From Desulfomonilia bacterium (lineage in GTDB: Bacteria > Desulfobacterota > Desulfomonilia > UBA1062): DNA of 64,000 bases. The notes beneath the pieces were generated by a model. It was not told the DNA's origin and did no database searches. It saw only the letters and a list, made by a program, of their open reading frames with translations. Both the position numbers and the translations under genes were made by a program. This document shows positions 60,489-64,000 of the stretch, piece by piece; the stretch's first letter is position 1; every line of letters begins with the position of its first letter. The DNA is taken from positions 62,001 to 126,000 of the forward strand of contig DATCTV010000028.1 in the NCBI GenBank assembly GCA_036567785.1, read 5' to 3'.

Positions 60489-63400
60489 CGGTTCATCCCC
60501 GCGTGTGCGGGGAACATATCTTGACACCCTTGCCAATGATCGTTTTGTCCGGTTCATCCCCGCGTGTGCGGGGAACATTTGATTGGCAAGGTCATAACCC
60601 AGAAGCTCGTCGGTTCATCCCCGCGTGTGCGGGGAACATATCTGGATCATCAATCCACTCATCAACAATTTCGGTTCATCCCCGCGTGTGCGGGGAACAT
60701 ATCACAGTAACGCCCGGAGGATCCAATGCACGCGGTTCATCCCCGCGTGTGCGGGGAACATTTACCCGCAAATTACAGAGCATTCCCGGCGAACGGTTCA
60801 TCCCCGCGTGTGCGGGGAACATAAATTAACAATCCCGAAGAAGTTTTAGTTCAACGGTTCATCCCCGCGTGTGCGGGGAACATAATGCCCCTGAGAATTC
60901 ATGTTTATCGTGGCACGGTTCATCCCCGCGTGTGCGGGGAACATTTTTAAAATCGGCGTCCGTGACATTGCGGAAACGGTTCATCCCCGCGTGTGCGGGG
61001 AACATATTTTTTCAAGGCATTATCGGTAGCGGGAACTCGGTTCATCCCCGCGTGTGCGGGGAACATTAATGGTACCAGTATTTACGATTCAGGAAATACC
61101 GGTTCATCCCCGCGTGTGCGGGGAACATGATATACAGCATTGCCCTGAATTAGCGCCAGGCGGTTCATCCCCGCGTGTGCGGGGAACATGATTACAGGCT
61201 CACTTATGGCATCTTTAACAACGGTTCATCCCCGCGTGTGCGGGGAACATGCATTGAATGTAAACCATTCATGCGGCCTGGGCGGTTCATCCCCGCGTGT
61301 GCGGGGAACATTCCTGATCCGAATGCCCCCTGCGGAAACGGAGCGGTTCATCCCCGCGTGTGCGGGGAACATGCAGGCAACAAGCTCTTATAATTCTATG
61401 GCAACGGTTCATCCCCGCGTGTGCGGGGAACATCATTGCGAGCTGAATATATATCTCGTTCTTGTCGGTTCATCCCCGCGTGTGCGGGGAACATATCGGG
61501 ATCGCCATTCTGGCCGAATTTCCAATCGGTTCATCCCCGCGTGTGCGGGGAACATATGTCACGGACGCCGATTTTAAAAAGAAATATCGGTTCATCCCCG
61601 CGTGTGCGGGGAACATTCCCAGGGTATCTTTAACATCCTCCATCCTGGCGGTTCATCCCCGCGTGTGCGGGGAACATGCCAGGGTCAATGTATTTAACCG
61701 CGGCAATTTCGGTTCATCCCCGCGTGTGCGGGGAACATTCAACAGGGACACCGGATGATGTGAACAACCGCGGTTCATCCCCGCGTGTGCGGGGAACATG
61801 TCACGATTAAAGGAATGATTATCAGGACAGCCGGTTCATCCCCGCGTGTGCGGGGAACATAAAGAAACGCTCACAATCAGGGTTACCTATGGCGGTTCAT
61901 CCCCGCGTGTGCGGGGAACATGACGCCAAGGCCGTGCCGTTTCCGCTGTCTGTCGGTTCATCCCCGCGTGTGCGGGGAACATACAGATACCGGAATCAGT
62001 ATTTATGATTCTGGCGGTTCATCCCCGCGTGTGCGGGGAACATCAATTGAGCCAGATAGCTGCCGGGAGGAATATCGGTTCATCCCCGCGTGTGCGGGGA
62101 ACATATAGAGAGCGACCTGTTTGCTGCGGCTGATGCCGGTTCATCCCCGCGTGTGCGGGGAACATATTGTGCAGGATTCTCATATCCGTTTTGATACCGG
62201 TTCATCCCCGCGTGTGCGGGGAACATGTCAATTCGGTATCCATATCCGTACTATCAATCGGTTCATCCCCGCGTGTGCGGGGAACATCCAAGGAAGAATG
62301 TCTCGATCTGCCGGATAAACGGTTCATCCCCGCGTGTGCGGGGAACATTGTCTGGCGATTAAGGCCCACTGTGACAGTGGCGGTTCATCCCCGCGTGTGC
62401 GGGGAACATTCATAGCCTATGGAAACAGATTCTATGCTGCCCGGTTCATCCCCGCGTGTGCGGGGAACATATGGCATATCCAGCAGCTCCGGCCAGGGCC
62501 ACCGGTTCATCCCCGCGTGTGCGGGGAACATGGTGCTGTATCGTGATGGGTTTGACTACAGGCTGGTTCATCCCCGCGTGTGCGGGGAACATAAAAGTCT
62601 GGATGAGCACGGAGCATTTGGTCTCGGTTCATCCCCGCGTGTGCGGGGAACATTCTATCCTGTAGGATTCAAAATCCGAGATGACCGGTTCATCCCCGCG
62701 TGTGCGGGGAACATTAGGAGCTGTCGCTTTCGAGTACGAGAGGGGTCGGTTCATCCCCGCGTGTGCGGGGAACATGCTGATCTGGACTGGATATTACAGC
62801 CTAACAACGGTTCATCCCCGCGTGTGCGGGGAACATCCGGGGCCGATGCGCCTATACTGGCGGCCGGCCGGTTCATCCCCGCGTGTGCGGGGAACATTTG
62901 ATTGGTTGGCAGTTAATTTCCGTTTATCTCGGTTCATCCCCGCGTGTGCGGGGAACATAAAACCATATAACATTACTGATTTTTCCCTGCCGGTTCATCC
63001 CCGCGTGTGCGGGGAACATTTCCCAGCGCGCATATTCGTTGCCATCAATTTCGGTTCATCCCCGCGTGTGCGGGGAACATTGCTTTACTATCAAGGAAAA
63101 TGCCGCCTGGGCCGGTTCATCCCCGCGTGTGCGGGGAACATGGACATATTCGGTCGTGTAGGTATCAATGCCGCGGTTCATCCCCGCGTGTGCGGGGAAC
63201 ATGAGGTCGGCGATATGATACATTCCATCCTTAGCGGTTCATCCCCGCGTGTGCGGGGAACATGAATACTGTGAACGTCAAAGGCGAGGTGTTCTGGGTT
63301 CATCCCCGCGTGTGCGGGGAACATGTCTGCATTTGCTGCAGCAGCCTTAGCGTTTTCGGTTCATCCCCGCGTGTGCGGGGAACATGTATGTGACTGGCTC

Positions 63401-64000
63401 GCCAGCCAGTTCCTTTACGGTTCATCCCCGCGTGTGCGGGGAACATTGGTGATTACTACATCAATCATTTTGTATCTCCGGTTCATCCCCGCGTGTGCGG
63501 GGAACATCAGAGGCAGAAGACATTTCCGATAACGCTCTGCGGTTCATCCCCGCGTGTGCGGGGAACATCATCCGACTGCTAGGCAGGGTGGCCCCCTCGT
63601 CGGTTCATCCCCGCGTGTGCGGGGAACATATCCATTTCCTCTGCGCTGGCGAGCGCAATGACGGTTCATCCCCGCGTGTGCGGGGAACATGTATGCCCGC
63701 ATAATGCTCACAGGCACGACCGTCGGTTCATCCCCGCGTGTGCGGGGAACATTGTTATCTATCCACCAACGGGCCGAGGAATTTCGGTTCATCCCCGCGT
63801 GTGCGGGGAACATCCTCACGTGGGTATGATGGGACGTGGCGAAGGCGGTTCATCCCCGCGTGTGCGGGGAACATACAAGAAAAACGGCAAGCGCCTGGAG
63901 TTCGACCGGTTCATCCCCGCGTGTGCGGGGAACATGCAGCCATTTCATTGGCTATATTCTGAAATATCGGTTCATCCCCGCGTGTGCGGGGAACATCAGA
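60489..64000 (-). CRISPR. Type I-E CRISPR array, 58 repeats, open at the right edge
   Basis: 58 repeats of 29 bases start at 60489 and end at 63996, then four bases of a further spacer. Each repeat begins CGGTTCATCCCC and ends GCGGGGAACAT on the plus strand, with hairpin arms CCCCGC/GCGGGG. The reverse complement ends GGGGATGAACCG, the transcribed form of type I-E repeats, so crRNA is made from the minus strand, the leader lies right of 64000 and 60489 is the old end. Of 57 complete spacers 55 are 32 bases and two are 33 (61067-61099, 63691-63723). Only the first plus-strand base varies, at 62564 (T) and 63296 (G). No cas gene is in the window. Confidence 0.98.

Follow-up and report, generated by a model that had tools for sequence, protein, structure and literature searches.

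The right end of the window (the whole stretch analyzed here, 64,000 nucleotides long, corresponding to positions 62001-126000 of contig C28 in the source genome G000, a 3.96-Mb draft in 64 contigs) is occupied by a CRISPR array. Its part inside the window comprises 57 complete spacers between 58 perfect repeats. The array extends beyond the window end, and in the genome it reaches 116 repeats and 115 spacers. The repeat has 29 nt (on the minus strand, ATGTTCCCCGCACACGCGGGGATGAACCG) and the spacers 32 nt, which are the sizes expected for type I-E; the unit length is 61 nt in 113 of the 115 units and 62 nt in the remaining 2. Read on the minus strand, the repeat forms a hairpin (-14.3 kcal/mol, z -3.2). 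The layout of the cas genes and the orientation of the repeat indicate that the array is read on the minus strand and that its new end lies at the right. We numbered the spacers from the leader-distal end. The features of the window used below are the following:

60489..64000, going on past the window, minus strand: type I-E CRISPR array, with the leader side and the cas operon beyond the right end
60945..60976, minus strand: spacer 8, in crRNA sense TTTCCGCAATGTCACGGACGCCGATTTTAAAA
61006..61037, minus strand: spacer 9, 21-nt opposite-strand overlap with spacer 99 (contig positions 128498-128529) at the PAM-proximal ends
61434..61465, minus strand: spacer 16, 14-nt opposite-strand overlap with spacer 62 (contig positions 126241-126272) at the PAM-distal ends
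61556..61587, minus strand: spacer 18, in crRNA sense ATATTTCTTTTTAAAATCGGCGTCCGTGACAT
62288..62319, minus strand: spacer 30, same site as spacer 63 (contig positions 126302-126333) with one synonymous difference

The cas locus and its relatives

Past the array, the minus-strand genes follow in the order 140-aa ORF, cas2, cas1, a BRO-N gene, a frame in the position of cas6e, cas5, cas7, cse2, cse1, and cas3. This is a type I-E set, with Pfam matches for cas3, cse1, cse2, cas7, cas5, cas1, and cas2, while the putative cas6e, a frame of 227 aa, is assigned by its position. The BRO-N gene (phage antirepressor-like; L024:9054-9884, contig positions 131353-132183, minus strand), placed between the cas6e position and cas1, has no relative in the I-E loci of the four other genomes compared. 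The 140-aa ORF (L024:7361-7783, contig positions 129660-130082, minus strand), between cas2 and the array, has no Pfam match and is conserved with about 52% identity at the equivalent place in the relatives G020 and G021, which also keep the arrangement of cas1, cas2, ORF, and array.

The type I-E systems of G020, G021, and G047 resemble that of the source genome in their repeat class and in the layout of cas1, cas2, and array. Cas1 and Cas2 (L024/L025 compared with L187 and L190) have 84-89% identity to the proteins of G020 and G021, whereas Cas3, Cas7, and Cas5 have only about 27-36% identity to those of the same two genomes and 43-62% to those of G047, which belongs to another family. A shuffling of the modules for adaptation and for interference thus seems to have taken place.

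Redundant spacers and their PAMs

The spacers at 60945-60976 and 61556-61587 both begin with 24 bases that are exact reverse complements of each other (TTTTAAAATCGGCGTCCGTGACAT in the former), as originally predicted; in crRNA sense, these are the last 24 bases of both spacers 8 and 18. The prediction also held that such a match cannot be due to chance, and the numbers bear this out: about 1e-9 matches of at least 24 nt are expected among 57 spacers, the runner-up among the spacers of the window has 10 nt, and shuffled spacers give 9-11 nt. The overlap reaches the ends of both spacers (24/24 bases), for which the expectation over the whole array is about 2e-10. Within the genome, and allowing for up to 3 mismatches, the 24-mer is confined to these two spacers, which are separated by nine others. 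Merged, they make the 40 bases ATATTTCTTTTTAAAATCGGCGTCCGTGACATTGCGGAAA, which would be continuous in the invader. The exact overlap, far above chance, supports the view that one stretch of an invader was sampled twice in opposite orientations. The overlap lies at the PAM-distal ends of the protospacers and, given that the array is read on the minus strand (from the cas genes and the repeat orientation), each PAM falls outside a different end of the 40-mer, in agreement with the predicted geometry.

The earlier view of this locus covered half of the array. Among all 115 spacers we found five redundant pairs (8/18, 9/99, 16/62, 30/63, and 69/86), and the four further pairs all involve spacers past the window end. 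Three are opposite-strand pairs, 8/18 (24 nt), 9/99 (21 nt), and 16/62 (14 nt), and two come from the same site, 69/86 being identical and 30/63 having a single synonymous difference. In the all-array comparison shuffled spacers score 10-11, and terminal overlaps as long as that of 16/62 (at least 14 nt) are expected by chance 1.6e-4 times. Merged, the spacers of 9/99 span 43 bases and those of 16/62 span 50. The members of the pairs are 10, 17, 33, 46, and 90 spacer positions apart, so the pairs did not arise from one burst of acquisition.

Two side observations concern other spacers. The other strand of spacers 10 (61067-61099) and 25 (61983-62014) encodes in both cases a GxSIYDSG peptide, with a DNA identity of 21/27, and the two may represent homologous sites in related invaders. 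The nine newest spacers (107-115, contig positions 128986-129505) have a mean G+C of 30%, against 48% in the remainder, as if a different, A+T-rich invader had become common.

The arrays of the relatives (94, 79, 33, and 22 spacers, at least two of the four being cut by contig ends) differ from the source array in that they have no opposite-strand overlap. Together they hold one redundant pair only, spacers 32 and 67 of the G020 array (L185, contig C22 of that genome), which come from the same site with two bases different; this is the same kind of recapture from variant invaders. The excess of redundant pairs in the source array over these four arrays is a weak difference (p 0.07-0.09).

Because the members of pair 9/99 overlap at their PAM-proximal ends, each spacer reveals the PAM of the other: AAG for spacer 99 and CAG for spacer 9. 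That CAG might be an escape mutant of the PAM of spacer 9 was considered and rejected, as CAG is among the PAMs that support interference in E. coli (PMC6568314). For E. coli, the last base of the repeat was reported to be donated by the PAM (Swarts et al. 2012, PMC3338789), and a base that is mostly G would be expected if the PAM supplied it here too. It is G before 111 of the 115 spacers; the other four bases, in crRNA sense, are A at 62564, C at 63296, and C and A at contig positions 127981 and 129262, adjoining spacers 34, 46, 90, and 111, respectively. They probably mark captures from non-G PAMs.

Through the overlap of pair 9/99, crRNAs of the array also have partial targets within it. 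At spacer 9, the crRNA of spacer 99 encounters an AAG and 22 contiguous PAM-proximal matches, one of them in the repeat (24/32 overall), and the crRNA of spacer 9 encounters a CAG and 22 contiguous matches at spacer 99. Among the other crRNAs, none has such a site with at least 9 contiguous matches in its own array. Experiments in E. coli have shown that Cascade still bound, and priming still occurred, at a protospacer with mismatches in positions 25-32, where no interference was detected; with mismatches in positions 19-32, binding alone was left (PMC5904413). The 22-base site of 9/99 falls between these two cases. Overlapping spacers might in this way bring Cascade to the array itself, where it would bind or even prime, and recapture would be limited as a result; we regard this reading as improbable. 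Pair 8/18 is safe from self-targeting because the seed ends of both spacers lie outside the overlap. Pair 9/99, which matches itself, offers a natural test of the extent to which a type I-E host can tolerate pairing of crRNA with its own DNA.

The search for invaders

The targets of 8/18 were sought in several collections. The 24-mer has no exact match in viral contigs, the best hit of the merged 40-mer among phages has an E-value of 0.2, which we judged to be at chance level, and the target was not found in 41 other genomes of the class. A codon-degenerate search with NVTDADFK and a longer form of it gave no match in viral contigs, nor did the peptide FRNVTDADFKKKY match phages. In genome contigs, the same degenerate search returned two bacterial genes sharing only the short motif, a HydG/ThiH-like radical-SAM protein and a chaperonin as read from their sequences; we judged them coincidental and rejected them as invaders. 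More generally, of the spacers compared with phages, which were nearly all of them, none has a match at E 0.1, spacers 1-30 (8 and 18 included) and 69 have none in plasmids, and degenerate patterns for 69/86, 16/62, and 9/99, in one reading frame each, have none in viral contigs. When all spacers were compared with 24 genomes of the order, only spacer 51 (63569-63600) had matches outside the array: 26-29 of its 32 bases match an element of the relatives G020 and G021 that lies twice just outside a CRISPR array and once next to a phage-like gene. In its own genome, spacer 51 has no match outside the array.

In pair 30/63, the other strand of both spacers encodes KEECLDLPDK, and the two differ only in the choice of one synonymous Lys codon (AAA/AAG). 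At least 120 viral contigs were matched in a codon-degenerate search for this peptide, and in the best 40 of these the recurring context was TKEECLDLPD(K/M)xYxxRxVxLT or near it. The protein of one of the viral records (L165) is SNF2-related (Pfam, 1e-25) and matches the PHROG 62 DNA helicase (8e-116). Judged by its conserved motif, the class of the target gene is clear, a phage SNF2-type helicase. The best DNA match to the site among the helicase-bearing viral records listed has 28 of 32 bases, so that these records are not the actual invader, and no convincing match to other spacers was found in them. AAG adjoins the site in the viral contigs, but that search required AAG. A synonymous codon difference within a conserved helicase motif points to separate captures of one site, and spacers 30 and 63 would most simply have been taken on separate occasions from variant phages.

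Origin of the redundant pairs

The best explanation for pair 8/18, to which we give a probability of roughly 0.8, is that two separate captures took overlapping protospacers from one 40-bp stretch, presumably of a phage, by random sampling of both strands. Spacer 8, the older of the two if the new end is indeed at the right as inferred from the layout, would have been captured first; nine further acquisitions would have followed before spacer 18 was taken from the other strand. Each protospacer would have an AAG-like PAM at a different outer end of the 40-mer, which would then be flanked by AAG on one side and by CTT on the other. The original prediction spoke of primed or repeated acquisition; the repeated part stands, given the five redundant pairs across the array, while the primed part is possible but not needed for the counts. 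When 115 captures were simulated as random draws from either strand of a pool carrying AAG-like PAMs, such overlaps would arise with no special mechanism at an effective target size of about 40 kb (about 26-105 kb). Estimated directly, the pool is about 40 kb when the three opposite-strand pairs are used and 26-105 kb, depending on PAM strictness, when the two same-site pairs are used. The simulation and the direct estimates concur on a phage-sized pool, approximately the genome of one phage or those of a few relatives, and this size is an effective minimum because hot, non-uniformly used prespacers could inflate recaptures. For a pool of 40-120 kb, 1-3 same-strand shifted overlaps are expected and the array has none, a small deficit. 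The redundancy is what would be expected if a small number of related viruses kept returning and were sampled repeatedly in the ordinary way.

Under priming, the crRNA of spacer 8 would have met a returning, possibly escaped phage, and Cascade-Cas3 would have steered the capture of spacer 18 beside the priming site. The required cas genes are present, relative to protospacer 8 the PAM of 18 is in a downstream position on the target strand, as reported for E. coli, where those primed spacers that lie downstream of the priming site have the opposite orientation (PMC6282206), and pair 16/62 has the same geometry as 8/18. However, the geometry of 9/99 differs from this downstream, opposite-strand rule, nine spacers intervene between 8 and 18 (and nine or more in every opposite-strand pair), and protospacers overlapping the priming site would be a special case. 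Moreover, the spacers gained together in one E. coli type I-E clone all targeted a single strand (PMC3338789). As the one-strand and opposite-orientation reports diverge, geometry alone cannot settle the matter. Priming may have contributed but is not needed, because plain two-strand sampling fits the counts, and we consider it unlikely as the origin of the pair.

It is still less probable, and indeed very unlikely, that the two spacers come from different copies of the sequence, either in an inverted repeat of the invader or in a conserved stretch common to two invaders. Pair 30/63 does show the sampling of variant phages at one conserved site, but the 24 bases shared by 8 and 18 are identical even at positions that would be silent in the open reading frames, and each of the three opposite-strand pairs would require such a repeat. 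If two variants of a single phage lineage had the site in common, this would be a version of the separate-captures explanation rather than a rival to it. That the similarity was made by duplication within the array, by capture of the array's own DNA, or by misassembly is hardly credible, even though the genome is a draft of 64 contigs and a rearrangement could account for the identical pair 69/86. Beyond the overlap, the remaining 8 bases of spacer 18 do not belong to the repeat, which shows that this spacer was not copied from the position of spacer 8 in the array; the neighbours of redundant spacers are unrelated, and recombination between repeats makes neither opposite orientations nor synonymous variants.

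With separate captures by two-strand sampling as the preferred reading, pair 8/18 is valuable as one of five recaptures that jointly size the invader pool, and as a pointer to the self-matching pair 9/99. Recapture counting gives the size of this pool (an effective 40 kb or so) without any virus in hand. Since opposite-sense overlaps record sequence outside each other's protospacer, the array alone yields sequence of the invader and, in 9/99, its PAM as well.

The system closely resembles the type I-E of E. coli (Swarts et al. 2012, PMC3338789; PMC6282206), with the same cas set, 29-nt repeats, and 32-nt spacers, a last repeat base that is mostly G, as if derived from the PAM, sampling of both strands, and an AAG PAM, seen here beside one protospacer. 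It differs in that co-acquired spacers of an E. coli clone were on one strand, whereas the opposite-strand captures of one site are here 10 to 90 spacers apart. Pair 8/18 is real, but ordinary type I-E behaviour in kind, because overlapping spacers from both strands had already been assembled into an invader contig in 2012: in an archaeon, such spacers, two of them in opposite orientation, rebuilt a contig of the invading plasmid (PMC3468723, Fig. 3). The same authors described overlapping spacers as rare in natural Sulfolobus arrays. While the archaeon, with a CCN-PAM system, gained hundreds of spacers in a single laboratory challenge, the array described here is a natural one of type I-E, built over time.
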